Assembly: GCA_937915285.1 (NCBI GenBank)
Contig: CALDNG010000040.1
Location: 1-26,634, forward strand
Length of the DNA: 26,634 nucleotides
Reading direction: 5' to 3'
DNA from: an uncultured Desulfomonile sp.
Lineage (GTDB): Bacteria; Desulfobacterota; Desulfomonilia; Desulfomonilales; Desulfomonilaceae
The translations under genes and the position numbers were made by a program. The notes beneath the pieces are model-generated. The model did no database searches, was not told where the DNA came from, and saw only the letters and a list, made by a program, of their open reading frames with translations. Below, in pieces: positions 8,006-26,123 of the stretch. How positions within the stretch are numbered: the stretch's first letter is position 1; every line of letters starts with the position of its first letter.

Positions 8006-8035
8006 CTTGGAGAGCCCCGATCTCGGATGAATCGT

Positions 8036-9048: not shown

Positions 9049-9064
9049 TTTTGACAGGGACTCA

Positions 9065-9610
9065 ATGAAGCGCACACTTCTGACAGGCGCCATAATTCTG
9101 ATACTGATGATTTCGGGTAAAACGCCAGTGTTAGCTTCTGATGGGCCTTTCTATCATCACATAACCCTTAAGCGAAACAAATACGTTACTTACAAGACAC
9201 ACTACCCTGATGATGTTTACCTTTGTTATGAGGGTGATGTGGATATTCCGTTCAGTTGCTATTACACGTTCAACAGGTTTGTTCAAATGGTTGTGGAGAT
9301 TGTGCGTCCTGGTATTACCGGGTTCAGGAGAGTAGATGTCGTGCTCTACATGGGGAATGACCGAAAACTGGTCGGCATGAACCGTGAAGTGTCGAAGGTA
9401 AAGACCTTCATCGTTAATACCCCTGATGTCAGGCCATTGAGACCTTTTGAAAAAGTATTTCAGGCCCCCGAAAACCTGAATGTCCGTGTGAAAATGTATC
9501 CGGAACTGGAAGGGAAAATTCTGCGTCAGATGGATTACAGGGACGTAATAAAGGACGACAGGGTAGACAGAATACCCTGTTTAATTAAAGTCTGGTGGCA
9601 ATGCAACTAG
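9065..9610 (+). CDS. Secreted protein of unknown function (181 aa, four cysteines)
   Basis: Not recognised. ATG 9065 has AGGGA about 6 nt upstream and lies 16 nt after the kinase-like stop, so the two are probably co-transcribed. Starts further upstream inside that gene would bury the signal peptide. Residues 1-24 are a clear Sec signal (MKRTLL, hydrophobic core, VLA before Ser25). The mature part is rich in beta-type sequence (VQMVVEIVRPGITGFRRVDV) and basic residues. It has exactly four cysteines, Cys54, Cys65, Cys172 and Cys180, which could form two disulfides in the periplasm. Context suggests a periplasmic accessory of the export machine, but no function is shown. Its stop is one base from the stop of the converging GT4 gene. 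Confidence 0.75.
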   Translation: MKRTLLTGAIILILMISGKTPVLASDGPFYHHITLKRNKYVTYKTHYPDDVYLCYEGDVDIPFSCYYTFNRFVQMVVEIVRPGITGFRRVDVVLYMGNDRKLVGMNREVSKVKTFIVNTPDVRPLRPFEKVFQAPENLNVRVKMYPELEGKILRQMDYRDVIKDDRVDRIPCLIKVWWQCN

Positions 9611-9611
9611 A

Positions 9612-10706
9612 TCATCGTCCGTGCGAGACTTTTTCAAGGATGTTGTCGTAAGTTTCACAGACCGTCTGAGCAATAGAATCCCAACTCATATCCGAATGGC
9701 TTTTTCTGAAACCTGCGATTCCCATAGAAGCGGCCATGTGAGGGTTTCTCAGGAGTTTGTCTATTGCTTCGGCGAGCGCCTTTGGATCTCCGGGTTGGAC
9801 AAGCAGCCCGGTCACCCCATCCTCGACCTGTTCCGGTAAGGCGCCGACATTTGTGGCTACCACTGGTCTGGAAAATGCGTAGGCCACTGGAACTATACCT
9901 GATTGGGAAGCGTCGGTGTAAGGTGTCGCCACTACGCTGCACTCCTGACACAATTGAGCTATTTCCTCTTCTGAGAGAAACTTGTCAATCAACCGGATTC
10001 GGCCGTCCCTGGCTGCAGCTAATTCGTAGGCTCCCGCGCCCTGCCCGGCTATGACTACCTGAACGTCATCGGGGAGATATTTCAGACAATCGACAAGTGT
10101 CTCAATGCCTTTGTAAGGTCTGATCCTGCCCCAGAAAAGTACCATTCGGCCCGGTATAACTCCCTGACGCACGTATTTTTCATAGAAACTATAATCACCA
10201 TGTGGAATGACAACCAGTTTTGACGCTTCATATCCCTGGGTTTGGGCCATTTCAAAATTAAATTTATAATGGACAAATATTTTGCTGCTTGATCTTGCAA
10301 GCAAATTTGTTGCCATTTTCTTTCTCAGGCTGTCCCCTGAATGCGGGAGTGGATCATGAAGAGTCCACACCAGCCTTCGACAGTCCATGAAGGGGATCAA
10401 CGTCGTAAGCCATATGTTCTCGTTGGTGAAATGAACTATATCCGGTTGAGGTTTCAGAATTTTCCGGATCAAACCCGGTAAAGCGGCAGCGTAAAAGGGT
10501 AGCCTCAGCAGGTTGGCTCGAGAAAAATCTTCAGGAACATCCACCTCAACCAGCATGATCTTTTGATCGATGCCTTTGTAAAACCCGGGCTCTTTGCGCG
10601 GTAAGACCAGTCGTATGTCACAGCGCCGGCAGAGCGCATTTGCGAGCGCAACCGCATAATATAACATACCCCCTTTACCGTAAAAATTGACTATGGTGAC
10701 ATTCAT
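9612..10706 (-). CDS. GT4 family glycosyltransferase (QSG-type variant)
   Basis: 364 aa GT-B enzyme. The N-terminus VTIVNFYGKGGMLYYAVALA has the GT4 glycine-rich loop. The donor domain shows LFWGRIRPYKGIETLVDCL and then PYTDASQSGIVPVAYAF followed by SRPVVATNVGALPEQV. In place of the usual EX7E pair the motif is DASQSG...PVAY, which defines a known GT4 subgroup rather than a broken enzyme. ATG 10706 overlaps the upstream stop as ATGA. It is the last gene of the block starting at Wzz and converges on the 181-aa gene with a one-base gap and no terminator. Sugar specificity is unknown. Confidence 0.9.
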   Translation of the reverse strand: MNVTIVNFYGKGGMLYYAVALANALCRRCDIRLVLPRKEPGFYKGIDQKIMLVEVDVPEDFSRANLLRLPFYAAALPGLIRKILKPQPDIVHFTNENIWLTTLIPFMDCRRLVWTLHDPLPHSGDSLRKKMATNLLARSSSKIFVHYKFNFEMAQTQGYEASKLVVIPHGDYSFYEKYVRQGVIPGRMVLFWGRIRPYKGIETLVDCLKYLPDDVQVVIAGQGAGAYELAAARDGRIRLIDKFLSEEEIAQLCQECSVVATPYTDASQSGIVPVAYAFSRPVVATNVGALPEQVEDGVTGLLVQPGDPKALAEAIDKLLRNPHMAASMGIAGFRKSHSDMSWDSIAQTVCETYDNILEKVSHGR

Positions 10707-11908
10707 TTGTGGAATACACTCCTGCCAAGCCGTTCATAGATAAGGGTCATTTTTCGGGCGGCTTCAGACCAGTCGTATTTTTCTTCCACTGTCTTTCGAG
10801 CATTGGCGGATATCTCATCATAAAGTTCAGGGTTGCTGAGCAGCTTGCTTACGGACTCGGCAAAACCGGCTGTATCTTCAGCCACCATAAAGTCCTTACC
10901 TGGCTCAATCTGAAGCCCTTCGGCTCCTTTGGAGGTTGATATCACCGGTTTGCCCAATGCCATAGCCTCCAGAATCTTGAGACGACTGCCGCTTCCGGCC
11001 CGCAACGGGACTATTGCCAGCGATGCACGCTCATAGAATGGCTCCACACTCGGAACGTCCCCCCACACTTCGACCGATCCGCAAGCTAGATTCAGGATTT
11101 CCTGAGAAGGCTTTCTGCCCACAATGAGAACTCGTGTGTCCGGAAAAGAATTCCTGATAACAGGAAGAATCTCGTTGCAGATATAAATGGCAGCATCCTG
11201 ATTAGGAAGGTAATCGAGCGCTCCGACGAAAAGCAGTACCGGTTTGCGAACCGCTGGCAAGGGTTTCAGTCTCTCTGTATCAACGCCGTTCTCAACGACA
11301 CAGACTGAAGAAGGCGGTTTTTTTCGATCCAGTATCTGAGCCTTGTCTACTTCAGACATCACAACCACAGTTGAAAAGAGGTTGTCCACGCGTGGTTCGT
11401 AAAAAGACATTTTTTTCCATTCCAACCACCAGAAGGCCCTCTTTACCGGGGTGTCAGCCAGCTTATAGCTTTGAAGCGCCAGGTCGGCGTCAATGTTGTG
11501 CTTGGTCAGAATAGAAGGCATTTTCAGTTTTGACGGGAGTCGTCTGAAATATTCAGCGAGATAAGTATGTTCAATCTGTATGACATCCGGCCGGAAGTTT
11601 CTTATTTGATCCTGAAGGTACGACGTCACCACAGCGTCCTGGTATCTTGAAACATAATAAGGTCTTGTCGATGTCAGGATTGATGCGATTCTCTCTATGT
11701 TATTCAGTTCCCTGAAAAAAAAAGTCCTGACCTTTCGGCAGACCTCTAACATTTCGGGAGAACGGGTTGGTTCATCAATGTTAAGAGTAAATGCTATGAG
11801 ATTAATGTCTACACTGGATGAAAGCTTGCGCATGAGATTGTACTGACGCAACTTGTCGCCGCTTTCGGGAGGGTAGGGTAATTTGGGAGATATCCAGAGT
11901 ACTTTCAT
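10703..11908 (-). CDS. GT4 family glycosyltransferase (Glyco_trans_1_4 type)
   Basis: 401 aa. The start VLWISPKLPYPPESGDKLRQ and the donor-site text PLRAGSGSRLKILEAMALGK with PVISTSKGAEGL are characteristic of a GT4 subgroup common in EPS loci, including sugar transferases annotated near PEP-CTERM/exosortase systems. No exosortase or PEP-CTERM protein is visible here, so that link should not be assumed. An AGG lies about 9 nt before ATG 11908. It overlaps the next GT4 by 4 nt and follows the upstream GT4 after 41 nt, so it is part of the same operon. Confidence 0.92.
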   Translation of the reverse strand: MKVLWISPKLPYPPESGDKLRQYNLMRKLSSSVDINLIAFTLNIDEPTRSPEMLEVCRKVRTFFFRELNNIERIASILTSTRPYYVSRYQDAVVTSYLQDQIRNFRPDVIQIEHTYLAEYFRRLPSKLKMPSILTKHNIDADLALQSYKLADTPVKRAFWWLEWKKMSFYEPRVDNLFSTVVVMSEVDKAQILDRKKPPSSVCVVENGVDTERLKPLPAVRKPVLLFVGALDYLPNQDAAIYICNEILPVIRNSFPDTRVLIVGRKPSQEILNLACGSVEVWGDVPSVEPFYERASLAIVPLRAGSGSRLKILEAMALGKPVISTSKGAEGLQIEPGKDFMVAEDTAGFAESVSKLLSNPELYDEISANARKTVEEKYDWSEAARKMTLIYERLGRSVFHK

Positions 11909-11949
11909 GACATAATACCTGCGTGTTTCAGCTCACTTGAGGATGCCTA

Positions 11950-13128
11950 TTATCGGCTTTTATTAAAATCAGTGATTACTTCCCTGTAGAAATCTATGTA
12001 TTGATCTACAATTCTATCCCATGAATATTCGGCCAAAACATAATCCCTGGCCCTCTCTCCAACTATACGGGCTTCAGAGGGATCAGCAAGAACTTTTTCC
12101 AACACGTCTGTCAGGTCATCAACAGACCTGTTTCGAAAAATGAATCCATGTCCATTTAAGGCTTCCAGGTTCTCTGGAATGTCACTAACCACGCAGCATT
12201 TGCCATAGCTCATCGATTCCAGTAAACCCAACGGCATCCCCTCTATTTCTGATGGTAATACGAACAACCTGGCGTTTGTAATCAATTCCAGAAATTTGTC
12301 ATCAGTGACATAGCCTGGAAAGATTATGTTTGGATTGTCAGCAGCCATTTCATGTAGGCTGCGAATATATTTCTTCTCGAAAGGATCATCCCCTGCCACT
12401 ACTAGCTTGACGGTGGTATCAAGTCTCTGAAAGGCTTCTATGATGTAATGAGCCCCCTTCTCGGGAACAAACCTTGCCGCGAACAGTATGTAATCATCCC
12501 CTTCCAGCCCCATAGACCTGATAATATTCGGCGCCTTGGGCCTTGGTATTTCAACACCGTTGGGGATATATTTGACTTTCCTACACAAAACCTTTTCGAA
12601 ATGCCGCTGCATTGTTCTGGAGACGCACGTGACTGCGTTGGGAAAGTTTTTTAGAGTGAGGTCATTTAGTCTAAGGAAAATACGGGAAAATCTGCCCCAT
12701 TTGGCTCTTTTCCAGAGTAAGGCATGCATCTGGACGACTGTAGGAATACCAACCCAGCGGGGGAAAGCTGAAAACATTGAGAATTCATGTATATGAAGAA
12801 TGTCAAAAACTTCTTCGGTATCAACCGGTCCGCCAAAAAATTTCTTCCTGAGCAGACTAACCACATTACGAAAGAGAAGCGGGAACATTGATGAGCAGAA
12901 CAGGGTTATTTTGTGAAGGTGTTTTTGGAGAATGGAAGGACGTACCCTGATTTCCATGCCCTTGTGAAGACCCGAATGTGAGCCGAACTGTGCGGCGGAG
13001 AAGACTACGACCCTGTGCCCACGTTCGACAAGTTTTGCCCCGAGCCTCTCGGTCACTGACTCAATACCACCACCGTAATCAATTCCTTTGACCGTCATGA
13101 ACCCTATGGTGAGAGGTTTTTCAGGCAT
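11950..13128 (-). CDS. GT4 family glycosyltransferase
   Basis: 392 aa GT-B enzyme. The N-terminus has DYGGGIESVTERLGAKLVER, a loop shared with rhamnosyl- and mannosyl-type GT4 proteins. The donor domain has LFAARFVPEKGAHYIIEAF and a full EX7E motif in SEIEGMPLGLLESMSYGK. AGGA about 7 nt before ATG 13128 supports the start. The 124-nt gap to the glycosylphosphotransferase gene upstream holds no clear promoter, so read-through from the Wzz promoter is likely. Donor sugar not determinable. Confidence 0.92.
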   Translation of the reverse strand: MPEKPLTIGFMTVKGIDYGGGIESVTERLGAKLVERGHRVVVFSAAQFGSHSGLHKGMEIRVRPSILQKHLHKITLFCSSMFPLLFRNVVSLLRKKFFGGPVDTEEVFDILHIHEFSMFSAFPRWVGIPTVVQMHALLWKRAKWGRFSRIFLRLNDLTLKNFPNAVTCVSRTMQRHFEKVLCRKVKYIPNGVEIPRPKAPNIIRSMGLEGDDYILFAARFVPEKGAHYIIEAFQRLDTTVKLVVAGDDPFEKKYIRSLHEMAADNPNIIFPGYVTDDKFLELITNARLFVLPSEIEGMPLGLLESMSYGKCCVVSDIPENLEALNGHGFIFRNRSVDDLTDVLEKVLADPSEARIVGERARDYVLAEYSWDRIVDQYIDFYREVITDFNKSR

Positions 13129-13252
13129 ACCCGTTCCTCGTTAAGATCAAACAGTCACTCGAATTCAAATCATAACCCTCAAGGAGGTTTTGTTGGCTTG
13201 AAAGAAATAATCCAATAAAAATACTACTGGCGTGACCCAATCTACTGCTGTT

Positions 13253-14002
13253 TCAATACGCTCCTCGACCTGAAAGGACTGCCGGGATGGTTTTGAGTAG
13301 TATGACGATGTCGCCCCAGAAAGATTGGCTCTCAATGTATTGTATGTCGAGGCTCACCTGTCCCTGAAAATCTATTTCACTTCGTCCTTTGACCTGCCAC
13401 AGTCCGGTTATCCCGGGTATTACATCGAGTCTGCGTCTGTCTGAAAAGGTATATTTGGCAACCTCTCCTGGAATGGCCGGCCTGGGGCCGACCATGGACA
13501 TGTCTCCAAGCAAAACATTATATAGCTGGGGGGCCTCGTCTATGCTAAACCTTCGCAGGATCTTTCCTACTCTGGTTATTCTTGGATCATCCCGTATCTT
13601 GAAAATTATGTCTCCGGCCTCATTCTCAGACTGTAAACTCTCCTTCTGACTATCTGCCTCAATAATCATGGATCTGAATTTATACATCCTGAATATTTTT
13701 CCGCGTTTGCCAACCCTGTCCTGGATGAAAAAAACAGGCCCGCCGTCTTCAAGCTTGATAGCCAGCGCCGCCACCGCAAAAATCGGAGAAAATATCAAAA
13801 GGCCAAAAACCGAACCGATTATATCCAGGGTCCGTTTAAGAGCTAGTGCGCTTTCAAGAAAGACTATCCAGGCAACTTTTTTGCTAAGAAATTTGAAATG
13901 TTGACGCCATCCGGAAACTCTGGCTCCACCCCAGGCAAACTTCCTGTACAGTTTTTCAAGCAATTCTCCGTCTCTGTGAAACTCATTTGAGTTTTTGGAC
14001 AT
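13253..14002 (-). CDS. Polyprenyl-phosphate glycosylphosphotransferase (initiating sugar transferase, PF02397)
   Basis: 249 aa. It transfers a sugar-1-phosphate from a nucleotide sugar to undecaprenyl phosphate and so starts each repeat unit at the inner membrane. The core is complete: hydrophobic re-entrant helix with Ser72-Pro73 (residues about 59-83), KFRSM (108-112), catalytic Asp155-Glu156 in RRFSIDEAPQL, MVGPRPAIPGE (170-180) and PGITGLWQVKGRS (196-208). It lacks the four-helix/Rossmann N-terminal region of full-length WbaP/WcaJ proteins and has instead about 50 basic residues, so it is a short monotopic form. It lies between Wzz and the GT4 genes. The first sugar (galactose, glucose or other) cannot be read from the sequence. 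Confidence 0.93.
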   Translation of the reverse strand: MSKNSNEFHRDGELLEKLYRKFAWGGARVSGWRQHFKFLSKKVAWIVFLESALALKRTLDIIGSVFGLLIFSPIFAVAALAIKLEDGGPVFFIQDRVGKRGKIFRMYKFRSMIIEADSQKESLQSENEAGDIIFKIRDDPRITRVGKILRRFSIDEAPQLYNVLLGDMSMVGPRPAIPGEVAKYTFSDRRRLDVIPGITGLWQVKGRSEIDFQGQVSLDIQYIESQSFWGDIVILLKTIPAVLSGRGAY

Positions 14003-14108
14003 TTCTTACTCAGCAGGCAAAAGTAATATGCCGCCAGAAGGTTTCCAGAGCTGCGCCAAAGTACTAGAACCCAATCAGGCTCTATATTCCGTGGTGATGC
14101 GACTCAAT

Positions 14109-15554
14109 CTATTTTCTTTTGCGGTAGTTCAAAATGGACCCGAGAACCTCAAGCCCCAAGTACTCGGTAATTTGTTCGGGCCGTCTTATTGTTTGGTCGA
14201 GGTATGCGCTTATCATAATGAGCCCAACACCGATTATTACGCCCCCTATTAATCCAAGGACCAGATTTAGGACTTTGTTTGGTCTGATGGCCTTGAATGG
14301 AGGCAAAGCTTTGTCGATGACATAAATGGTGGCAGCCTTGTGAACACTCATCTCAGCCGCTATTCTTGCGCTTTCAAGTTCTTCAAGCACTTTTTTGTAA
14401 ATCGCCGACTGGTTGTCCACGTCCCTGCGTAATTTTTCATATGTGACACGGTGTTCGACTATGTCTAGTAAATCCTTTTCAATCTCTGCGACCCGCTTCT
14501 GCATGAATTCGAGTTTTTCCCGAGAAGCTATTTGATCAACGTTTCTGGATTCAAAATCCTCGCGGATCTGTCCTTTAAGAAGGTCTTCTGCATAGGAAAC
14601 CTCGTTTTGCAGCATCCCCACATCATCGAACCTCTCAGTTCTGCGCTGTTTGACATGGGCCAGTTTCAGCCTCAGGTTTTCAAGGTTATCCCTGACATGG
14701 ATCAGGGAGAGATTCTTAGAGCTACTGTCAAGAGGGACAAATCGTCCACCGGTTTCTTTTTTGAGATCCTGCAAAAGGGCCAGAGCCTTGGAGCGCTCAG
14801 CGTAATCCGAGGCATACTGGTCATAAGACCCGATGAATCTGTATGATTCCGTGAAACTGGCGGAAGTCCCCTGCTTGGTGAGTTCTATCAGCGGAATGAG
14901 TTTGGGCCCTAGTTTCAGCTCAAAATCCCTGAGTTTTGACTCACTCTCTTCCAGAAACCTCGCTACCTGGTCGGACTGGGTTTCCAGGAACCTGTAAGAC
15001 TCATGGGCGTTTTTGCTTTTCAGTTCGTAATAATACTCTATGTATCGATCGGCATAGAGATTTGCCAATTGGGCCGCCAATGAAGCCGAGCCGGCCTTAA
15101 CCTTTATCAGAATGAAGCTCGAGCCTCCCTCAAGAGCGCCAGGATCAATTTCCGCCTCAATGTTCTTTCTGAGGCTATCCACCATCTTGGTTTGCTGTTC
15201 GCTGGAGAGTTGATTCCAGGCTTTCTTTTCTGTGCCGTCAAGTGACTCGGGGGGCAGAGTTTCCAGGACTCTGGAGGCAACCGTATTGCTGAGAATAAGC
15301 TCCTGCTGATCTTTGAGGAAAGAAAAACGGGTATCCTCAACCTTGAAAGGATCGCCGGTCCGCTGTTCTTTTGCCCAAATCTTGGTCGAGGCCGAATAAA
15401 CCTTCGGGATCAGGAAGCTGACTATCAATGCTATCAGAGGAGTGACAATGACACAGATGAAGAAGATCTGTTTTCGGGTATAGAATGCCTCTACGTAGTC
15501 CTTCAGGGACAAACTGTTTCCTTCACCCCTGTCTTTAGCTTCGAAACGCGCCAC
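14109..15554 (-). CDS. Wzz/GumC-type chain-length determinant (polysaccharide copolymerase)
   Basis: 481 aa. Two membrane helices bracket a long periplasmic region: TM1 at about 30-50 and TM2 at about 430-448. The latter is preceded by the proline-rich PPFKAIRPNKVLN typical of PCP proteins. The middle (about 200-400) is strongly helical and charged, consistent with coiled coil. The cytoplasmic tail ends in YRKRK and carries no kinase domain, so a separate kinase-like partner is expected, and one lies at 8347-9048. Wzz proteins set polymer length and link the polymerase to the export channel. The start is GTG 15554 with GGGAG about 10 nt upstream, and no in-frame ATG lies near. It heads the block down to 9612 and has a promoter of its own. 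Confidence 0.9.
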   Translation of the reverse strand: MARFEAKDRGEGNSLSLKDYVEAFYTRKQIFFICVIVTPLIALIVSFLIPKVYSASTKIWAKEQRTGDPFKVEDTRFSFLKDQQELILSNTVASRVLETLPPESLDGTEKKAWNQLSSEQQTKMVDSLRKNIEAEIDPGALEGGSSFILIKVKAGSASLAAQLANLYADRYIEYYYELKSKNAHESYRFLETQSDQVARFLEESESKLRDFELKLGPKLIPLIELTKQGTSASFTESYRFIGSYDQYASDYAERSKALALLQDLKKETGGRFVPLDSSSKNLSLIHVRDNLENLRLKLAHVKQRRTERFDDVGMLQNEVSYAEDLLKGQIREDFESRNVDQIASREKLEFMQKRVAEIEKDLLDIVEHRVTYEKLRRDVDNQSAIYKKVLEELESARIAAEMSVHKAATIYVIDKALPPFKAIRPNKVLNLVLGLIGGVIIGVGLIMISAYLDQTIRRPEQITEYLGLEVLGSILNYRKRK

Positions 15555-15938
15555 GGACTAAAGGCTCCCAATCTATGATTATTATTTCCCTTTTTCTACA
15601 CTGGATATTCACAGATTGTCACGTAAAAGTCAAGAACGCTCTTTAAATCATAGAAAATGGTTCGAATTTGATCTGGCTGAGTGACAATTCATATGAAACC
15701 GTCAGGTATGCATGTTTTCAACACCCCTCACTGCGACATGTGCCCCCCACGATGCCTCACTGGTGTTCGGTTGTAGTCAGGTCGAGGGTTTGGATTCAGG
15801 GAAAAGACTTTCAATGAATTCTCTGAACATGCTAAATACGCAAGGTTTTTAGGAGATTTAATGCGTAATTTCGGCGAGGATGCCAAAGTTCTCCCAATTC
15901 AATTGGAAATCCGGTTGATATCTGGGCTTGAAGTTGCC
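15555..15938. other. 384-nt intergenic region upstream of the Wzz-type gene
   Basis: No long gene. The left part (15605-15633) holds the Wzz promoter. A perfect short palindrome CCAATT-C-AATTGG lies at 15894-15906. On the plus strand a 35-codon frame (15861-15968) starts with ATG 5 nt after AGGAG and runs antisense into the end of the neighbouring GT4 gene. Its product is not recognised. No GC-rich hairpin with a T-run was seen behind the GT4 stop. Confidence 0.5.
15605..15633 (-). promoter_or_regulatory. Promoter of the Wzz-led operon
   Basis: On the minus strand TTGACT (15633-15628), 17-nt spacer, GAATAT (15610-15605) preceded by TGT, an extended -10 element. It lies about 50 nt before the GTG at 15554. 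Confidence 0.5.
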
Positions 15939-15968
15939 CTATTTCCCGGTCGGATTGAGGACGGATGA
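15861..15968 (+). CDS. Possible small ORF (35 aa) with a strong ribosome site
   Basis: ATG 15861 follows AGGAG with a 5-nt spacer, about as good a Shine-Dalgarno site as any in the window. The frame gives 35 residues with a hydrophobic middle (IRLISGLEVALF) and ends at TGA 15966-15968, overlapping the last 30 nt of the GT4 gene on the other strand. No good promoter was found before it. It could be chance. Confidence 0.15.
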   Translation: MRNFGEDAKVLPIQLEIRLISGLEVALFPGRIEDG

Positions 15969-17063
15969 ATAGACTTGGGCTTGAAGCCGCATCATATTTT
16001 CTATCCCAAAGCTTTGAACCGCCTTCTCGCGGGCTTTTACAGAAAACTCATGCAACTGCTCAGGTCTCATGTCCAGGAACTTCTTCATGGCGCCGGCAAT
16101 TGCATCTACATCACCTGGGCTTACCAGGAATCCGTTGACTCCGTCCGTAATATTTTCAACCAGGCCCGAGTAGGAGGATGATAATAGCGGCTTTCCCATG
16201 GCCATCATTTCCCTGGCAGCAAAAGATATGGTCTCTATTGAATCACTGAGGATGAAACCCACATCGAAAAGTGAAATGTATGGAATGACGTTTCTATGAA
16301 AACCAGCGTAAATGAACCTTTCTACTCCTAATTCGGAAGCCAGTCTGCCTAACTGTTCACCAAAATCCTTGTCTCCCAGGGCAATTATGGCGAACTTGCG
16401 TTGATTCTTCAGTTGGCTGGCTGCCTTGATGATGGTGTCTACCCTCTTGTAAGGCATTGTCCCTGCGCAGGATCCGAAACAGAATGTGTCATCGTCTATT
16501 CCGAGGCTGGCTGCCAGTTCCATATTCCTGGGAATAGGTTTGTAAAGGTCTGCGTCGATGCCGTTTTCAATCACTATGCCATTAGTAAGTTTTATGCCTG
16601 AATTCAGGCATAACCGCATGGATGAATCTGAGACAAAGATGTTCTTGTCAACCGTCCCGCCGTAAATAAGCCGGTGATAAAAGCTGTTACTGATTGTTCT
16701 TACGGCGTGATGGGTTCGGACAATCCTGAATGATCGCCTGAATGGATGACTCCAGGTTACAGTGTACAAATCGCCACCATTTGTATGAACTATATCCGGT
16801 TTGAAATCCCTGGCTATCTGTCTGAAGCGCACGAGGCTTTTAAGAACGTCGGAAATATGTCTGTAGGAGATGCCCGGGAAATCGCATTCATAGAGATGCG
16901 GGTAGGAAGCCTCCGACAGGAACCGGTATATCTGGGATTCTGCCGGAGATACGACCCCCAGGACATTTCCTGAGTGATTGAAGTGTTTGATCAGCGCCAG
17001 GATGTATGGAACGTGACCACCCCCACCTTTAGGGTGAAAGTTCGTCACCAATATTCGGGTCAT
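15939..17063 (-). CDS. GT4 family glycosyltransferase
   Basis: 374 aa GT-B enzyme. The N-terminus ILVTNFHPKGGGGHVPYILA has the glycine-rich acceptor-domain loop. The donor domain contains CAGTMPYKRVDTIIKAASQL and a complete EX7E motif in SIETISFAAREMMAMGKP, followed by NGFLVSPGDVDAIA. AGGGGAG about 9 nt before ATG 17063 supports the start. It is preceded by the GT8-like gene after 134 nt and probably read from the promoter at 18223-18252. It adds one sugar to the repeat unit, identity unknown. Confidence 0.92.
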   Translation of the reverse strand: MTRILVTNFHPKGGGGHVPYILALIKHFNHSGNVLGVVSPAESQIYRFLSEASYPHLYECDFPGISYRHISDVLKSLVRFRQIARDFKPDIVHTNGGDLYTVTWSHPFRRSFRIVRTHHAVRTISNSFYHRLIYGGTVDKNIFVSDSSMRLCLNSGIKLTNGIVIENGIDADLYKPIPRNMELAASLGIDDDTFCFGSCAGTMPYKRVDTIIKAASQLKNQRKFAIIALGDKDFGEQLGRLASELGVERFIYAGFHRNVIPYISLFDVGFILSDSIETISFAAREMMAMGKPLLSSSYSGLVENITDGVNGFLVSPGDVDAIAGAMKKFLDMRPEQLHEFSVKAREKAVQSFGIENMMRLQAQVYSSVLNPTGK

Positions 17064-17197
17064 TTGGTCAGTCTCCCCTAAAAGCGAGCAAGGAAAACCT
17101 TAAAATCTCATTTGTCCATGTCAGGATTCACGATTATCGCCACTAGGTGGCTTCAGGCAGTCGGGATTTTGCGCGCCATCGAATCGACGTGAGCAGA

Positions 17198-18163
17198 TTA
17201 GTTCTTGCCGAATTTTCGGCCAATAGACCGAACACTCCGGCCGACCTGACTTCTGAAATCCTTGTAAATTCCCCTGACATGGGCTTCAGCGTATGAATAG
17301 GGCATGCGCCACTTCTTGAATGCTGAGGGAATCGGTGGGACCTTCATTCCCTGCCTTTCAACCCAGTCCAGAAGCTCGATCACCTTGGGAATGCAATACA
17401 GAAAACGTTTGTTCCATCCAATCCATGGTTTTGGTGACCCGATGAAATGGACTACATGTCCGGCGCTGAGGTCATCGAGTCGGAATTGGCTGGGTTCAGG
17501 ACAATTTTCTGAAAAGAACATAACGGCATTCAGCGCAGATTCATCTGTCATCCAGTAAGCAGGGTTTCCTCTGTCAACAGCGCTATTCACATGGGGGTTG
17601 ACTACCCTGCTGATCAGAGTCTCCCATTCTTCGACGAAGCGCATGTAGCGACTATGGAAAATGAAACAGTTGGAGGGACAGGTTGAAGTGACCCTGGGAG
17701 TTTGTCTGCCACCCACATCTTCCTTCCAGCGGTCCAGCACCCACGACGGCACATCACCTATACGGTCTCCCGGACGATAATATCTTTCAAAGACTGACGC
17801 ATTTTCTTCCGGGGAACGTAAACGGATCTGAAATTGGTGGTTTACCGGAAGAAGAAATTCGGATATCGAATCTACCACAAAGCAGTCGGCGTCAAACCAG
17901 GCCACATATTCGGTAGAATCAGCCTTAAGCAGATAGCCGGGTTTGCGATTGTTCATAGCGAATGGGCTGTTCGAGCTGTCTTCCCTTAATTCGGCCACCG
18001 GAAATTGGGAGATATACTGTTTGGCAGCCTCATCAAAGGCTACCTGAAAAACAATAAGGTTTACGGGAAGCCCCATTTTCTGGATAGAGGCGGTTAACAG
18101 GAAAACGCCCCAAAGATAATTGACATCACATGCTGTAACAATCGACAAATCGAGTTTTTTCAC
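17198..18163 (-). CDS. GT8-like glycosyltransferase (GT-A fold)
   Basis: 321 aa. Unlike its neighbours this is a GT-A enzyme: LDLSIVTACDVNYLWGVFLL at the start, a metal-binding DxD as Asp91-Ala-Asp93 in VAWFDADCFVV, TDESALNAV (206-214) and HFIGSPKPWIGW at 239-250, which matches the HxxGxxKPW-type end motif of GT8 (galactosyl/glucosyltransferase, LgtC-like) proteins. The last 50 residues are strongly basic and amphipathic, as in membrane-associating tails of this family. The start is GTG 18163 with a modest G-rich site upstream. It should transfer a hexose with retention of configuration. Exact sugar unknown. Confidence 0.75.
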   Translation of the reverse strand: MKKLDLSIVTACDVNYLWGVFLLTASIQKMGLPVNLIVFQVAFDEAAKQYISQFPVAELREDSSNSPFAMNNRKPGYLLKADSTEYVAWFDADCFVVDSISEFLLPVNHQFQIRLRSPEENASVFERYYRPGDRIGDVPSWVLDRWKEDVGGRQTPRVTSTCPSNCFIFHSRYMRFVEEWETLISRVVNPHVNSAVDRGNPAYWMTDESALNAVMFFSENCPEPSQFRLDDLSAGHVVHFIGSPKPWIGWNKRFLYCIPKVIELLDWVERQGMKVPPIPSAFKKWRMPYSYAEAHVRGIYKDFRSQVGRSVRSIGRKFGKN

Positions 18164-18317: not shown

Positions 18318-21300
18318 TCAAGGTGAGAGCACGGGACTATTCATGAAGGCTGAGCCATCAGGTTTTTCAGCCAGCAAGTTGATGGCTGCGGCGCAGGCAG
18401 CCAGTTCAACTATTGTGAACTCAGACATTGGCACAAGCTGATTGGCGTCTATGTATCGTCTCAGTATGGGATATGGGTCCAGAGTCTCCTTGCTTGGTGG
18501 ATAGCTGTTTGAATCATTCTGGCTAGCCACGTAGAATGGCTGGTTGTTGGGCAGATGGGCTGTAGGCCCGAAGATCGGCAATCCTGGAAATGGCCGTTCA
18601 ATCCCATCATACATGGACGGGATGTGCAGTGGATCCTTGGGAGAGCGGTAGCCAAGTCCTGTGATAAAACTCATTGATAGTGGGTTCGCGCCAAGTTGTG
18701 TGTCCAGATTCAAAAGAGCCATTTCCTGATATTTTCTGTCACCTGATATTTTCCATGCCTGCAACAGCAGAAAGGAATACTCCGAACTCTGGGTGAAAGC
18801 CCCCCATCCTATCCAGTCCAGCACATTAAGTCGGGCGGCGTTCCGGTATGGATTCTGGTTCGTGTAGCCAATTAACCTGTCCGCCTTTTCCAGCAAACCT
18901 CGCCTGATTTCCCTGCTGATGGAGCTATCGGTATTTGGCTGGCCTGAATTAAGATAAGCCCAGTATGCGTTCCTGTAGAAATCCTGCCAGGTGTTCCATC
19001 CCCACGGATGACTCTTGTTTTTTCGCCACCAGGACTCGAAGTAATCCCTGTATTTTGGTAATCCCGTCGTCCTGTAAAGCTCACAGGCAGCCCAAAGCCG
19101 GTTATCGATGTCTTCCTTGTCCCGGTATTCACCTGTTACATTTTTCGGAGGGTTGCGAAAACCTTCTTTTGGAACAGCATCCGGGTGAGTCTCCAGAAAA
19201 GCCCAGGCCTTTTCAGCCCTTTTCAGGTACTCATTTGCCAGTTTTGAGTCATAGGGTTTCCATAGCCGGGCGCCACTGGCCATGACGGCTGCGGCAAGCG
19301 CCGTGTCATGGGTTGTCTTATCAAACAGATACCTGGGCGTGTTTTCTTCTTGAGGCATTCCATGAAACCACTTCTCAGATGTCTGTTTGTGATGGACGGA
19401 CCCATCAGCGGCCTGAATCCTGGCAATCCAGTCCAATTCCCATCGAGCCTCGTCCAGGAGGTCCGGAACTCCGTTGCCACTCTCAGGAATGTTCCACGCG
19501 CCATCCTGGAATTTTGAGGGCTGGATGTCATAACCGGTGAAAAGGTACCATAGAGCTGCTGCCGCTGTGGGCATGTATTTCCCATAGTCCCCTGCGTCAT
19601 GCCAGCCGCCCGAAGCATTGATCATTTCTCCCGGTTTTTCTCCGGCATGGAGGGGGGATTGCGGAAGGGATTCATAAAAGACCGCGTCCAGCATACGTCC
19701 TTTTGGATCAAATTCGTGATCGAGCGGACGGGTAAAATCTTTTTCAGCATAGGGTTCAACCAAAGGGGTACCGCATCGCTGGTAATAAAAAGCATGGGCT
19801 GTAGCGTAGGCAGCCTTGTTTAAAGCGTCTTCGGATACGATTATCGGGGTGGACACTCCGATCCCCGGAATATATGCGTGGTATCGCCCCGGTGTTTTGA
19901 TCGATGAAAAATCAAAACTGTAGACGTCTTCCCCTGAGAGATTCCAGTTGGCGGCTTCCAGTTTTAAGGGGACACGGAGAACTGTTTTTCCTGTCTCCAC
20001 ATCTAAGATAGTTACTTCCGGAATGGGCTCGGCCAAACGCATGGGGCCATAAGGGATAGAAAAAAGACCTGATAAATCCGGTGAACCTGGATGTTCAACA
20101 GATATCCAGCTTGCTGTCTCCGGAGAGAGTGTCAGCAATGTCCCGTTTGATCCCGCAGCCCAGAAACGGCGAGCGTTCTGGCGTGTAATCCCCCTGATTG
20201 AATGCCCGCTTGGGGCTAGTGAATTCCTGAATTCAGAGCTGTTTCCAGGTTTGTGCCAGATTGACCCATCATCACCTGCAACCCAAACACTCCCCACAGG
20301 ATCAACACTCATACACCTCAAGGTCTCCTTGAGTCCTGTTGGAACTGGAAAGGTTTTCCACTTGCCCTGGGAACGAACCAGCACAACTCCATTTTCACCT
20401 ACGACCCATAGCTGATCGGAATCACCGCCACCGATGGCATGGAGGTTAACTCTCACTCCACTACGTTCCTCAACCCACTTTTTGCCATTCCACCTGAGAA
20501 TCACCCCAGAGTCACCCACAGCCCAGGCAGAGTCCCCTGAGCCTACCCAAATCCCGTTTAATGTAACGTTGAGGCCTGTTGGAATGAGCGCCCATTTCCC
20601 CTCATTTTTTCTAAGTGTTATACCATTTGCGCCAACGGCCCATGCGTCGCCCTGGGGTCCAAACCCTATGCCATGTAGATTCTCACGTGTAGGGGACTCG
20701 ATCCTTGATAATTCGGAACCGTTCCAGTGTAGTATTTCACCTTTGTCCCCCATGAAGTAAACATCTGAATCCTTTAGGCCGGAGACGGCTCTTAAATTTA
20801 TGGCGCCTGGCGCAAGAATTTTCCGCCAGCCAGAAGAAGAGGTCCATTTGAGTAGCGTCCCCCGCTCGCCCACGGCCCACGCGCTTCCCCCGAGATCCCC
20901 AAAATAACCGCCTACATATCCCGTTTTCCTGGCTTCCGGAAGATAGCCCTCCTGGTTGACCTTTATGTTATGGTTTGAAATGGCCCTGTCCTCATAAGTG
21001 AGGAGTAATTCAGTCGCTGCTATCTGATTGCAAAATTCGTCCTCTATCCCCTTCATGTTCAGTCGGTATGTACATCCGTTTTTCATTGGAAAGGGAAGTC
21101 GAACGAAAATTGAATAGCGTATCAAGGGAATCTTGCTCGGGGTGAACCCGTGAACCCTGAACTGGATACCAAGTTCCGCAGGATGTGAGGGGGTTTTATA
21201 GGCCGGATCGGAATCGCTTGAAATTGTGTAGTTCTCAGGATTTCTGACACTTTTTTCAAGCCATCGCCTTGAAAAGGTAAGCCTGATCACATCACTGGTC

Positions 21301-21893
21301 TCTGGAAAAGGGCCCCATTCGCCATCGGTATGGATGAAAGGGAGTGTTGTCAGAGAGAGCTTGATTCTGTCTACAAGGTAAGTCCTTCGATCCCTGTCAA
21401 CATTCCATTCAATGCTTTCAACATCGCCCAAATCCCATTCGTCGGTCTTGAACTCAGAGAGAGGAATCTTAACCAGCCTCAACGTTTTGTCTATCGTATG
21501 ATCGCTGATGTAGTCCCTGATTCGGACGGTTTTTGATTTATGATTCCATGTCTTCAACTGGACTGTTGGCTCACCGGGATCAGGACTAAGGCTGCTAAAA
21601 TAGAACTCCAGTTCACTAAAGCCGGAGAAGTCTTTTCGGGAACTGTTTCCGCAATGAAATCGGATTGTGGGATTGTGCCAAGGGTCTGGGGTTAGTCGCA
21701 GGGCCGAGCCTCCGTCAATGCCCTGGCCTGGGGCCATGGATATGTATTTCAGGCAGTCACGGTTGAACTCTCCCGCAAAAAGCAGTTCTCCATGGAGACA
21801 TTTCGAGTTACCTAGCGCGTAATTATTCGAGACCTGAAAAATAAAGAGAGTGAGGAATAATACCAGGAATCTATAGAAACAATTCTTGTTCAT
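18318..21893 (-). CDS. Secreted GH9 glycoside hydrolase with a seven-repeat propeller inserted in its Ig-like domain
   Basis: 1191 aa. GH9 enzymes are inverting glycosidases, mostly beta-1,4-glucanases. Order: signal peptide (1-27); CBM-like sandwich (about 35-180); SbsA-like Ig domain (about 188-300, LTFSRRWLEKSV ... YRLNMKGIEDEFCN); first strand of a CelD_N Ig domain (about 309-328, IKVNQEGYLPEARKTGYVGG); seven WAVG repeats (333-614); rest of CelD_N (about 622-688, ending SFDFSSIKTPGRYHAYIPG); GH9 barrel (about 695-1180). Catalytic residues fit: Asp766 and Asp769 in GGWHDAGDYGKY, Glu1158 in MSEFTIVE. At the substrate site the usual H-x-R reads His1090-Ile-Pro. ATG 21893 has GGAAG 9 nt upstream, inside the NRPS gene, whereas a TTG at 21902 would touch that site. 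It overlaps the NRPS gene by 23 nt. It may trim or sense the exported polysaccharide (inference). Confidence 0.88.
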   Translation of the reverse strand: MNKNCFYRFLVLFLTLFIFQVSNNYALGNSKCLHGELLFAGEFNRDCLKYISMAPGQGIDGGSALRLTPDPWHNPTIRFHCGNSSRKDFSGFSELEFYFSSLSPDPGEPTVQLKTWNHKSKTVRIRDYISDHTIDKTLRLVKIPLSEFKTDEWDLGDVESIEWNVDRDRRTYLVDRIKLSLTTLPFIHTDGEWGPFPETSDVIRLTFSRRWLEKSVRNPENYTISSDSDPAYKTPSHPAELGIQFRVHGFTPSKIPLIRYSIFVRLPFPMKNGCTYRLNMKGIEDEFCNQIAATELLLTYEDRAISNHNIKVNQEGYLPEARKTGYVGGYFGDLGGSAWAVGERGTLLKWTSSSGWRKILAPGAINLRAVSGLKDSDVYFMGDKGEILHWNGSELSRIESPTRENLHGIGFGPQGDAWAVGANGITLRKNEGKWALIPTGLNVTLNGIWVGSGDSAWAVGDSGVILRWNGKKWVEERSGVRVNLHAIGGGDSDQLWVVGENGVVLVRSQGKWKTFPVPTGLKETLRCMSVDPVGSVWVAGDDGSIWHKPGNSSEFRNSLAPSGHSIRGITRQNARRFWAAGSNGTLLTLSPETASWISVEHPGSPDLSGLFSIPYGPMRLAEPIPEVTILDVETGKTVLRVPLKLEAANWNLSGEDVYSFDFSSIKTPGRYHAYIPGIGVSTPIIVSEDALNKAAYATAHAFYYQRCGTPLVEPYAEKDFTRPLDHEFDPKGRMLDAVFYESLPQSPLHAGEKPGEMINASGGWHDAGDYGKYMPTAAAALWYLFTGYDIQPSKFQDGAWNIPESGNGVPDLLDEARWELDWIARIQAADGSVHHKQTSEKWFHGMPQEENTPRYLFDKTTHDTALAAAVMASGARLWKPYDSKLANEYLKRAEKAWAFLETHPDAVPKEGFRNPPKNVTGEYRDKEDIDNRLWAACELYRTTGLPKYRDYFESWWRKNKSHPWGWNTWQDFYRNAYWAYLNSGQPNTDSSISREIRRGLLEKADRLIGYTNQNPYRNAARLNVLDWIGWGAFTQSSEYSFLLLQAWKISGDRKYQEMALLNLDTQLGANPLSMSFITGLGYRSPKDPLHIPSMYDGIERPFPGLPIFGPTAHLPNNQPFYVASQNDSNSYPPSKETLDPYPILRRYIDANQLVPMSEFTIVELAACAAAINLLAEKPDGSAFMNSPVLSP
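20052..20897 (-). repeat. Seven tandem WAVG-type repeats (beta-propeller) within the GH9 protein
   Basis: Protein-level repeats of 39-41 residues with the core xWAVGxxGxxLxWxGxxW and a later LxxI. The core motifs start at residues 338 (AWAVG), 378 (VYFMG), 417 (AWAVG), 456 (AWAVG), 495 (LWVVG), 536 (VWVAG) and 577 (FWAAG). Seven even repeats fit a seven-bladed propeller of the Ycf48/BNR-like kind. The block starts right after the first CelD_N strand and ends where the rest of CelD_N resumes. Confidence 0.8.
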
Positions 21894-24800
21894 CTTTATC
21901 AACTTCCTTCATGCATGTCCTGATCTGTTTTGCCAGAACACTGGCGCCGGGTTCTTTTAATATTGTCATGTGTGAACCTGGAGCCACGAAAATCTGAAGG
22001 TCTGGACTCATCATCTTCCATAGTTCATCAAGTTCCGGGACCTGTCCATCTTCGAGTGTATCCCCGGAAAACAATCTGATCGGGCACGGGACAGACCCTT
22101 TCAGACGGTAATGAACAGCAGCCTCGGTGTTAATTTTATAAGTTTTTGGCCTGTTCACCAGCACTCCAGCGTCTAATTCTTCTGCGGGATCAGAGCCGTT
22201 GTCGCCCAACAGGATTCTTTTCCAGTAACGAAGTTTACTCAGGGCAAAAAACTTCCAGGCCCTTGGCCCTAGTTTCAATATACCCTTAATTTTGGTGTAA
22301 TTGTAGAGAAAGGCCTTCTCAGTCATTTTAGGGAATGCTGTTTCTATCAATAAAAGCATGCTTACTTCAATGTCTCTTGCCAGCATCTGATAAGCCATTT
22401 CAAGAGCGACCAGTCCACCGTAACAATATCCGGCCAGGCAGTATGGTGGGGATGGTTTGAATGCTATCATCTCATCAATGTAGAAACGGGCCATGTCTTC
22501 TATGGTCATGTGGACTCTGGAAACATCCCTAAGCCCCAATGCTTCGAATCCATAGCATGGTTGGTCATTTCCAAGTCTGTGTACAAGATTGACATAGCCC
22601 AACAAATCCCCCGGTTCTGCATGCACAATGAAAATGGGCGGACGCGATCCGTTTGGCTGTAACTCGACGAGACATTCGGTGGTTCCGGAGCCACTGGACG
22701 GTCTAGTCGTGGTGATGATTCTGGATTGCGCTTCTATTGTGGGATTCTGGATAAACTCAATTGGTGATAGGTGAAGCCCTGCCTTGTTCACCCGGTCTAT
22801 GATTTGAAGGCTCAAAAGAGAATGTCCGCCAAGTTCGAAAAAATTGGTGGTAACTCCGACAGTTTTTACTCCAAAAACGTCCTGCCAAATCTCGGCCAGA
22901 AAATATTCCATTGAATTTCGTGGTGCAATTATATGATCAGAACCTCCCTGTTTGGATGATTCAAGCTCAGCAAGGGCTGAAGAATCTATTTTACCGCTTG
23001 AATTAAGAGGGAATTCACTCATGAGAGTAAATTTTGAGGGAATCATGAAGTCGGGCAATTTTTCCCCGAGTCTTTCTCTCAAGCTGGAAGTATCAATTAG
23101 AACGTCTTTTCTTGGAATTATGTAGGCAATAATCTGTACAGGATCAGGCTCCTGTTGAAAGGCCATAGTGTAGACTTCAGCTATTTCTGGTAGCTGACTT
23201 AAGACAGAATCGATTTCATTGAGTTCTACTCTGAAACCACGAATCTTCACTTGGCGATCCAGTCTTCCACAGAATTCGATTTGCCCATCCTCCAGGTATT
23301 TTGCCCGGTCACCTGTTTTGTAAAGCCTGGCTTCATCGCATGATTCGAAGGGATTGGAGATGAAGCTAAGCGCTGTTTTTTCGGGCAGGTTAAGGTATCC
23401 CGTTGCAAGGCTTCTTCCACCTAAATAGAGTTCCCCTGTAACACCATGCGGCGTCGGGTTCATGTTCGCATCCAGGATGTAGGCTCGAATGTGTTCCAAA
23501 GGCCTCCCGATCGGAACCTGAGAATTTTCTGCCGCCAGTGGCTTCCAGTAGGTCAAGTCTGCCGCCGTAGCTACGACCGTGGCCTCGGTAGGACCATAGG
23601 TGTTGATAAGTCGGACAGATGGGGCCGCTATACTGTTCCAGGCTATCACTCTGTCAGCCATCGCCTTCTCACCACCGATTATGACCATCCTAAGGGTTTG
23701 TGGAAGTTGAATAGACTCTTCTTCAAGGGCTCTGGTTAACTGATGCCAGAATGCTGTGGAAAGGTCGAGAATTGTGATTTTGAGTTTGACACATTCAGCC
23801 ATAAATGAGGTCGTGGACTGAAGTGTTTTATCCGATCTGAGCGCAAGGCTCGCGCCGTTGCATAGGGTCATGAAGATTTCTTCAACACTAGTGTCAAAAC
23901 TAGGCGACGCCAATTGTAGGACAGTGTCATCCATGCGAACATCGTAAAACGTACTGATGGAAATAACAAAGGTCGCCAAGGCGCCATGATCTATTATCAC
24001 TCCCTTGGGTCTTCCCGTTGATCCAGAAGTGTAGATGATATAGGCCGCCTGTGACGCCTCTGGCTTATTCGGAATCTCCGAATCAGGCAACCTCGCAACC
24101 TCCTCCCAGTCCCTGTCTATGCAAAAAATTTCGGGTCGATAATCGCCAGAAAAATAACCGATGGTCTTCTCCAAACGAAAGACATTTTCCCGATCCGTTA
24201 TCACGACAGACGGACGCGCGTCTTTCAGAATGAATTCTATTCGTTTTTCAGGGTACTTCGTGTCTATGGGAACGTAACAGGCTCCCGCCTTCAAGACCCC
24301 AAGTATCCCGAGAATGTTGAAACGGTTGGGCTCTAACATAAGCGCTACCCTGTCGCCAATCCCAACTCCGCGGTTCTGCAAATATCTGGCGATCAGGCCG
24401 GTTTCGCGATTCAAACGGTCGTATGTAACCTCAAGCGTTTCGCCGGATTCTTCATGAGCATCTATCAACGCGACTTTTTCCGGATATTTATCCGCCATCT
24501 GTTCAAAGAATTCGACGACACCACAATAGGGGCCATCAATAGAGTTACAGCTTCCACTCCATTTGTTTATGAGAACGTCTTTCTCTTCACTGGTTAAAAG
24601 TTGCAGTTCGGAAATCCGGACGCCGGGGTTTGCGCAGGCATCTTCAAGAAGGATATGCAGGTGTTCGTGGAGGGCTGAAACAGATGACGGATTGAAAAGA
24701 TCCCTGCTGAAATCCGTCACCAGCCTGATTTCTTCATCCAACTCACACACCGTAATAGTCAGATCAAAGTCTGATCGGAATATTCTGACTTCAATAGGTT

Positions 24801-25950
24801 CAAGCTCAATTCCTGGAACATCAACAAAATGGTCCTCCTGGTTTTCGGAGATCATCATGACCTGAAAGACCGGTGTCCTGTCGATGTGTCGGGCAGGTTT
24901 GACATTTTCGAGAACTACTTCAAATGGGATACACGAGTTAGCTAAAGCATCCGTGATTTCTTTTGTGACTAGCCTCACGAGATTACGAAAATCGGGAACC
25001 TCTTGTAAATCGGTTCTAATGGCTATCATGTTTTCGATAGAGCCGACGATTTCCCGATAGCTAGCGGCGTCTCTGTTTGGAGTCACCGTTCCAACACAAA
25101 TATCATCCTGATTGGTCAGACGACTCAGAAGCGCGGCTAACCCGGCGAATATGACCGTGAAAACCGTGGATCTCTCATCCTGCGCCATTTGCTTGATGTT
25201 TTGCGACAAAACTGAACCCAACGGTCTGGTTGTCCGAGCCAAAATATAATTCCGGGCGGAGGTCCTTGGAAAATCTGTTGGTATGCCAAGAGGCTCTGGT
25301 ATGGTCCTGAATTTATTCATCCAGAATTGTAAACAGGATTGACCCTCTTCTGACTTGATCCACCCCGATTGATCCAGAACGTAATCTTCGTATTCAAGAG
25401 GAGACTGCCCGTAAAGATGTGTGTGTTCACCAATTAGTTCTGAATAAGCTTCCATCAAGCGCCGGACGATGATCTGGGCTGACCATGAATCCGCAATGAT
25501 CTGGTGAATTGTGAATACCAGTAGATGATCTTTGTCGCTGAGCCTAAACACTTTGCATCTGAATAAGGGACCAAGACCCAAATCGAATCCTCTTTCGGAT
25601 TCCTTCAAATAAAGATTTGTGGCCTCTGAGAAACGTTCAGCCTCCGGGACAGCAGTCAGGTCAACCTGTTCGAGTGAAACTTGACCGGAGCCATTGACAA
25701 GCTTGGTCGGTTCGGGAGTATTCTGGTGAAAAGTGGTTCGCAAAGCCCGGTTTCGTGATTGGACCAGGTGAAGCGCTTTATTTAAGAGGGCAAAATCCAG
25801 GATTCCGGTTAGGCGGTATATCAGGCTGCAATTGTAGGCCGGCGTTTTTGGATCAAGCTGGTCGAAGTACCATAACCTCTTCTGAAAATCGGACAGTAGA
25901 CTTTCCGTCGGGATAATAGAGTGGTCACGGGTCAGATTTTTATCTACCAT
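21871..25950 (-). CDS. One-module nonribosomal peptide synthetase (C-A-PCP-TE)
   Basis: 1359 aa. Domains: condensation (about 12-445), adenylation (about 475-990), carrier (about 1010-1080), thioesterase (about 1095-1345). The adenylation core motifs are intact: YTSGSTGRPKG (640-650), NTYGPTE (783-789), YKTGDRAKYLEDG, Lys987 in NSSGKID. Pocket residues by alignment with GrsA are D686 T687 E690 D729 I757 G759 T784 V792 V793 K987. The carrier has Ser1044 in LGGHSLL. The condensation motif HHxxxDG reads His149-Gln150-IIA-Asp154-Ser155, so the catalytic second His is missing. The thioesterase nucleophile is Cys1176 (GYCYGG), with Glu1203 where Asp is usual and His1327. ATG 25950 is preferred: GGAG lies 9 nt upstream and a TATAAT box about 55 nt upstream. 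TTG 25983 would lie very close to the transcript start. Its 3' end overlaps GH9. Confidence 0.93.
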   Translation of the reverse strand: MVDKNLTRDHSIIPTESLLSDFQKRLWYFDQLDPKTPAYNCSLIYRLTGILDFALLNKALHLVQSRNRALRTTFHQNTPEPTKLVNGSGQVSLEQVDLTAVPEAERFSEATNLYLKESERGFDLGLGPLFRCKVFRLSDKDHLLVFTIHQIIADSWSAQIIVRRLMEAYSELIGEHTHLYGQSPLEYEDYVLDQSGWIKSEEGQSCLQFWMNKFRTIPEPLGIPTDFPRTSARNYILARTTRPLGSVLSQNIKQMAQDERSTVFTVIFAGLAALLSRLTNQDDICVGTVTPNRDAASYREIVGSIENMIAIRTDLQEVPDFRNLVRLVTKEITDALANSCIPFEVVLENVKPARHIDRTPVFQVMMISENQEDHFVDVPGIELEPIEVRIFRSDFDLTITVCELDEEIRLVTDFSRDLFNPSSVSALHEHLHILLEDACANPGVRISELQLLTSEEKDVLINKWSGSCNSIDGPYCGVVEFFEQMADKYPEKVALIDAHEESGETLEVTYDRLNRETGLIARYLQNRGVGIGDRVALMLEPNRFNILGILGVLKAGACYVPIDTKYPEKRIEFILKDARPSVVITDRENVFRLEKTIGYFSGDYRPEIFCIDRDWEEVARLPDSEIPNKPEASQAAYIIYTSGSTGRPKGVIIDHGALATFVISISTFYDVRMDDTVLQLASPSFDTSVEEIFMTLCNGASLALRSDKTLQSTTSFMAECVKLKITILDLSTAFWHQLTRALEEESIQLPQTLRMVIIGGEKAMADRVIAWNSIAAPSVRLINTYGPTEATVVATAADLTYWKPLAAENSQVPIGRPLEHIRAYILDANMNPTPHGVTGELYLGGRSLATGYLNLPEKTALSFISNPFESCDEARLYKTGDRAKYLEDGQIEFCGRLDRQVKIRGFRVELNEIDSVLSQLPEIAEVYTMAFQQEPDPVQIIAYIIPRKDVLIDTSSLRERLGEKLPDFMIPSKFTLMSEFPLNSSGKIDSSALAELESSKQGGSDHIIAPRNSMEYFLAEIWQDVFGVKTVGVTTNFFELGGHSLLSLQIIDRVNKAGLHLSPIEFIQNPTIEAQSRIITTTRPSSGSGTTECLVELQPNGSRPPIFIVHAEPGDLLGYVNLVHRLGNDQPCYGFEALGLRDVSRVHMTIEDMARFYIDEMIAFKPSPPYCLAGYCYGGLVALEMAYQMLARDIEVSMLLLIETAFPKMTEKAFLYNYTKIKGILKLGPRAWKFFALSKLRYWKRILLGDNGSDPAEELDAGVLVNRPKTYKINTEAAVHYRLKGSVPCPIRLFSGDTLEDGQVPELDELWKMMSPDLQIFVAPGSHMTILKEPGASVLAKQIRTCMKEVDKDEQELFL

Positions 25951-26123
25951 GCTGTATTTCTCCGCAGGATCCGCATCGATCAATCAAGCTTGATGAGCGC
26001 TCTGTATTATAGGTTTAAATTCTAGGGTTAAAGCGGAATGTTCAAAAAACTTTTTTATCTGTATTATCGTGACAACAGCGGTTTTCGCCCCGAAACAATG
26101 TGGCCACTTGTTAGAGGTCGAAT
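25951..26123. promoter_or_regulatory. Divergent promoter region, NRPS and phosphopantetheinyl transferase
   Basis: 173 nt. On the minus strand a perfect -10 TATAAT lies at 26011-26006 with no good -35 at the right distance, so activator dependence is possible. On the plus strand TATTAT at 26062-26067 is a weak -10 candidate. An A6-C-T6 inverted repeat (26044-26056) lies between them. The shared region suggests joint control of the NRPS and the enzyme that activates it. Confidence 0.45.

Follow-up and report, generated by a model that had tools for sequence, protein, structure and literature searches.

The window (the whole stretch of DNA analysed, 26,634 nucleotides from an uncultured Desulfomonile sp.) carries a GH9 gene on its reverse strand at 18318..21902, identified from its open reading frame and its Pfam matches to GH9 and CelD_N. 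The encoded protein has 1194 aa if translation begins at a TTG at 21902 or 1191 aa if it begins at an ATG at 21893; the database copy (P0001) has 1191 aa. Positions 1..18163 of the same strand hold an exopolysaccharide cluster recognized by Pfam (an export protein, Wzy-like, Wzx-like and Wzz-like proteins, a priming transferase and several glycosyltransferases), within which two ORFs at 8347-9610 lie on the opposite strand. On the other side of the GH9 gene lies a reverse-strand nonribosomal peptide synthetase (NRPS) module, C-A-T-TE according to Pfam (21871..25983); with the ATG at 21893 as the GH9 start, the end of the NRPS gene and the GH9 gene share 23 bases.

The fold of every domain of the GH9 protein is predicted from a structural model. 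An N-terminal helix (residues 6-26, 21825..21887) is likely a signal peptide, and we infer that the protein is likely exported. The helix is followed by a predicted CBM-like jelly roll (residues 35-187, 21342..21800) and by a second predicted beta-sandwich with an SbsC-like Ig fold (residues 185-309, 20976..21350). The jelly roll matches those of CBM8, CBM11 and CBM30 in the predicted structure, an assignment made by fold; residues 1-310 have no Pfam match up to E 1. The CelD_N domain comes in two segments: the first (residues 310-338, 20889..20975), delimited by alignment to intact CelD_N-GH9 structures, includes NIKVNQEGYLP and the entry hinge GYVGGYFGDLG, and the remainder (residues 619-690, 19833..20048) is delimited by the Pfam match at residues 629-681 and the VIA alignment. 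Between them lies an insert predicted to fold as a seven-bladed YCF48-like propeller (residues 339-618, 20049..20888). Next along the chain is the catalytic domain, a GH9 (alpha/alpha)6 barrel (residues 696-1180, 18363..19817), with the DAGD catalytic Asp pair at residues 769-772 (19587..19598) and with E1161 (18420..18422), whose aligned counterpart in canonical GH9 enzymes is the catalytic acid (SNE or MSE).

Interruption of CelD_N by the insert

CelD_N scores 43.6 bits in Pfam (cutoff 24.6), and its best stretch, residues 629-681, covers positions 33-84 of the 86-position profile, the later part only. Structure alignment and the empty site in relatives indicate that the domain is not contiguous and that 280 residues interrupt it. 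Seven copies of a WAVG-type motif, spaced 39-41 residues apart, fall between residues 342 and 587, and a motif fitted to the seven repeats gave at most one match in any of 2000 shuffles. Structure comparison of the model gives a seven-bladed propeller as the predicted fold of the insert.

Judged from aligned sequences, relatives that do not have the propeller retain both flanks of the insertion site. For instance, P0073, P0074, P0075 and P0077 align to the window's protein from residues 49-71 to residues 335-343 and again from residues 647-655, with 20-36 residues of their own between. In these four, GYxGNYLG(D/S)A(G/E)xM leads directly to the second CelD_N strand; in the window, the junction reads GYVGGYFGDLGG, then the propeller, then YGPMRLAEPIPEVTILD. 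Two further relatives align up to residue 338 of the window's protein and then resume further on: L002 (Sphingobacteriaceae MAG) has six residues of its own before alignment returns at residue 628, and L027 (Bacteroidia MAG) has 19 before it returns at residue 635. The empty-site borders are thus 338/628 from L002 and 338/635 from L027, whereas structure alignment gives 339..618 for the insert itself. These two independent lines agree on the domain borders and put the insert downstream of the first CelD_N strand, bounded by residues 338 and 619.

The propeller-less sisters (P0073, P0074, P0075, P0077, L002, L004 and L027) share the N-terminal domains and the first strand with the window's protein, and the sisters with P numbers also share the GYxGNYLG loop and the catalytic C-terminal signature. 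Unlike the window's protein, the sisters carry no propeller, and 58 residues separate the two strands in those with P numbers compared with about 341 in the window. By regular expressions, which give rough distances, the motif-to-motif distance is 336-352 in 53 of the 75 homologues with a propeller (of the remaining 22, ten have a false motif inside the propeller, three have a longer linker and nine are unscored), 58 in six of seven sister-like homologues (one unscored), and 48 in 24 of the 26 scored others (12 of 38 unscored). The three canonical GH9 homologues included in the junction alignment (P0087, P0092 and P0100) lack the YLGDAG loop as well. We infer that the point of entry of the propeller was a lengthened first loop of the YLGDAG type, which the propeller-less sister group already has.

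The empty site in propeller-less relatives rules out a propeller in tandem with CelD_N rather than nested in it. An artefact of assembly or gene modelling, in which two genes were fused or a tandem domain was misread as an insertion, has practically no probability: nothing was found in its favour, the reading frame is open throughout, the sisters show the empty site, and independent homologues refute it, as 75 of the 120 listed carry the insertion. A putative eight-blade subgroup (P0063, P0064 and P0067, with strand distances of 379-384 against about 341) was dropped, as P0064 can be read as seven blades; its extra residues (about 40 in each of the three) form a linker rich in Ser and Pro that joins the exit hinge of the propeller to the remaining CelD_N. 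Separately, P0030 and P0069 have a second propeller-matching stretch near the N-terminus, and some members may therefore carry two propellers.

GH9 endoglucanases with CelD_N (3x17; CelD, 1clc; J30, 5u0h; BoGH9A, 6dht) resemble the window's protein in having an Ig domain, an (alpha/alpha)6 barrel and DAGD, but they have no propeller insert. The model shares 33% identity with 3x17 over 537 aligned residues, and across the four structures 521-537 of 541-548 residues align with the model, so that an insert of 280 residues could not fit in them. The multi-modular xanthanase GH9 (6fhj/6fhn) has no room for the insert either (residues 310..1181 of the model align to 5..556 of its chain), and its other modules lie after the barrel.

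The insert resembles the YCF48 and PSII_BNR propellers (2xbg, 5ojp) in its related repeats and in the seven-bladed fold, which is predicted for the window. Those propellers are stand-alone assembly factors and are not known to be inserted in an enzyme. The link to YCF48 comes from the sequence profile: a family profile of the propeller matched Ycf48 chains, the best four at 1.1e-12 to 2.5e-11. The window's propeller alone had no match to PF14870 (PSII_BNR) up to E 1, and a single-sequence search returned no Ycf48 chain at E 0.01. In the structure comparison, the propellers among the best 50 rows were designed, WD40 and virginiamycin-lyase propellers, with no Ycf48 chain among these 50.

The first-pass annotation had described a GH9 enzyme with CelD_N, now placed above the Pfam cutoffs for both domains, in which a propeller of seven 39-41-residue repeats is nested inside the Ig-like domain. 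This observation is confirmed by the motif count, the predicted fold, the structure alignment, the empty site and the listed homologues; the interpretation then attached to it is partly supported.

Distribution and history of the inserted form

Homologues were sought by scoring the 7993 candidates with the most words in common, of which 372 passed; the best 120 of the 372 were listed. Of the 120, 75 span the propeller at the same site, the database copy of the window's protein among them; none of the 75 has fewer than 265 of the 280 propeller positions aligned, and overall identity goes down to 35%. A precomputed PSII_BNR label stands beside GH9 in 29 of the 75, among the matches listed. Because of these two counts, the nested propeller is regarded as a family and not as an oddity. 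One locus from a named genome, L001 (Desulfomonile MAG), is 56-57% identical over nearly the whole length. Most of the names given in the source records read 'hypothetical protein' or 'photosystem II stability/assembly factor-like'; P0016 (Pseudomonadota MAG) is a 'glycoside hydrolase family 9 protein', P0069 an 'endoglucanase' and P0058 a Myxococcales hypothetical protein. The arrangement had also been put forward as undescribed, unless many annotated GH9 proteins shared it. Among the open-licence PubMed Central papers listed for GH9 with a propeller, Ycf48, PSII_BNR or an inserted Ig domain, none describes this arrangement; the claim of novelty holds to that extent, but it is weakened by the 75 listed homologues that share the insertion and by the 29 so labelled.

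Genome searches, whose sets overlap, recovered the family in 4 of 198 genomes related to G001 (G001, G005, G008 and G014), 4 of 42 in the class of G001, 2 of 395 in the phylum of G005 (G005 and G277), 1 of 193 relatives of G277 and 1 of 148 in the class of G277. Some match was found in 53 of the 198 G001-related genomes, mostly to propeller repeats only, and G237, from the phylum of G005, has a GH9 that could not accommodate the insert. In G008, the contig stops inside the gene, and the match covers residues 4-396 (the first blade and a part of the next); in G014, the contig also ends inside the gene and the match covers only residues 2-295, so that the insert is not visible. Among viral contigs, 156 pattern matches included no relative.

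In a tree built from GH9 domains only, a single branch (SH-aLRT 100) separates 71 proteins with the propeller from 33 without it; the tree is unrooted, was made by a quick method with no mixture model, and has several long branches flagged. The 71 come from the 75 spanning homologues, with P0001 replaced by the window's protein and with P0060, P0066, P0078 and P0080 removed for short GH9 matches. The 33 comprise 29 database sequences up to P0104 and loci L002, L004, L006 and L027 (P0105-P0120 and L003 were left out). At the level of GH9 sequence, one change explains the propeller on this tree, and a single gain is argued from the absence of the insert in canonical GH9 homologues. Pairwise distances in the propeller correlate with those in GH9 (r 0.81; 0.89 for the N-terminal domains against GH9; 62 rows of alignment A1), and therefore the propeller and GH9 were probably inherited together.

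Catalytic barrel and gene neighbourhood

Pfam identifies GH9 at residues 696-1165 (E 1.4e-63, 216.2 bits against a cutoff of 27.7), and the predicted structure has the (alpha/alpha)6 barrel of the family. D769 and D772 of DAGD are present in 62 of 62 aligned sequences, and the DAGD string is missing in six of the 120 listed matches, none of which has the propeller. E1161, aligned with the canonical SNE, is E in 61 of 62 (a gap in the other), although residues 1152-1160 have a pLDDT under 50. The barrel is probably active, as judged by these conserved residues. Its C-terminal segment reads PILRRYIDANQLVPMSEF, compared with TPPALCYVDD..SYASNE in canonical GH9 homologues, and the altered acid-bearing segment is common to the propeller-less sisters P0073, P0074 and P0077. 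The segment therefore looks like the mark of a separate catalytic subgroup whose substrate may not be plain cellulose, and the propeller is not needed for this active-site type, since propeller-less sisters have the same C-terminus.

In three of five other loci (G005, G014 and G008), the gene immediately upstream of GH9 is a related NRPS (46, 47 and 57% identity to the window's, respectively), with the GH9 gene visible in G014 only up to before the insert and in G008 until shortly after its start. None was found directly upstream in G277 or in G001, whose contig offers only about 1.5 kb upstream, with an opposite-strand ORF. The NRPS of G005 is longer than the window's and has two adenylation domains. 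Condensation domains are known to follow the rule HHxxxDG. The window's C domain has HQIIADSWS (25480-25506), compared with NHIISDGWS in G005 and SHIISDGWS in G014; it departs from the rule and may therefore be inactive. The adenylation pocket motifs FD[TA]S[VL]EE, LDL, VIIGGE and NTYGPTE[AT]TVVATA are kept in the four NRPS copies, and two acidic residues at the known pocket positions hint at a basic amino acid. A divergent phosphopantetheinyl transferase (26124-26634) adjoins the NRPS, as do relatives (32% identity) in G005 and G014.

Downstream of its GH9 gene, G005 carries Wzy- and Wzx-like genes, and G001 has relatives of these that are 77 and 73% identical. Exopolysaccharide genes around the GH9 gene in the window and G005, with the relatives of the G005 genes in G001, count in favour of a polysaccharide-holding propeller. 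In G277, none of the 22 neighbouring ORFs scanned (of 24) was an exopolysaccharide gene; an efflux pump, a hydantoinase and acyl-CoA enzymes are present. The exopolysaccharide link fails in G277, and thus the substrate may differ across the family. In the window, the ORF that follows the GH9 gene closely on its downstream side (17198-18163, 321 aa) has no Pfam match and no relative among the compared loci, and a 526-aa ORF (1043-2623), whose GH42-type match is weak (24 bits against a cutoff of 21), is possibly a second glycosidase of the cluster.

Possible roles of the propeller

The CelD_N domain of GH9 enzymes is usually seen as a folding or stability aid whose role is not completely clear, according to PMC9820247. 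Among possible roles of the insert, a fixed glycan-binding platform is judged the most likely, ahead of protein docking and then of a spacer. Tentatively, and somewhat short of an even chance, the predicted YCF48-like propeller in CelD_N of this likely exported GH9 would be a fixed platform that holds a polysaccharide chain for the probably active catalytic barrel. The CBM-like module and the propeller would together hold the exopolysaccharide chain, and the enzyme would probably trim or release the exopolysaccharide of its own cluster.

In a somewhat unlikely alternative, the propeller would dock proteins rather than hold the sugar chain, tethering the enzyme to another protein that is exported or lies in the envelope, for example the exopolysaccharide export complex. 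YCF48 is a protein-binding assembly factor and, by the family profile, the closest solved propeller, and the GH9 genes of the window and G005 sit in exopolysaccharide clusters; yet the insert is kept in G277, where the lack of exopolysaccharide genes among the scanned neighbours leaves no common partner visible.

Conservation bears on whether the propeller binds anything. Over 62 rows, mean entropy is lowest in the first strand with the entry hinge (0.75 bits, residues 310-341), higher in the barrel (1.26 bits), and higher again in the two N-terminal domains (1.78 and 1.81 bits) and in the propeller (1.87 bits). The propeller is thus less conserved than the barrel and about as variable as the N-terminal domains, which would also fit a passive, ligand-free stabilizer or spacer of the Ig domain. 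This role is unlikely. In its favour, the propeller is the most variable part, though hardly above the N-terminal domains; against it, a spacer might be expected to lose blades, yet all 75 propellers align almost completely, which is no more than suggestive, as these homologues were chosen for spanning the insert. The hinge motif GYxGxYLG also occurs in sisters that have no propeller and is therefore no argument for propeller function; the hinge may be conserved for contact between the Ig domain and the barrel.

The first-pass annotation had suggested that a propeller next to the active-site face could gate the enzyme. On its side stand the whole-chain pTM of 0.87, which suggests a fixed arrangement (the domains are predicted to be held in one fairly rigid arrangement), and the packing of the GH9 Ig domain against the barrel, as stated in PMC6038386. 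The sequence and model analyses give no pointer to an open-closed switch, and gating appears very improbable.

A variant of the polysaccharide-holding platform is a long shot: the propeller would recognize an amino-acid or short-peptide substituent on the exopolysaccharide, made by the adjoining NRPS where one is present, and direct the barrel to cut there. Among the open-licence PubMed Central papers listed, none addressed an NRPS combined with exopolysaccharide and GH9 or Wzx/Wzy. If this variant were true, a peptide-tagged glycan and its dedicated cutter would be encoded in one operon. More broadly, a lineage in which CelD_N serves as the scaffold for a whole propeller provides a natural experiment on the way in which a GH9 enzyme acquires a new surface, and the three grades (no loop, short loop and propeller) allow the role of the insert to be examined by comparison with the short loop of the sisters.
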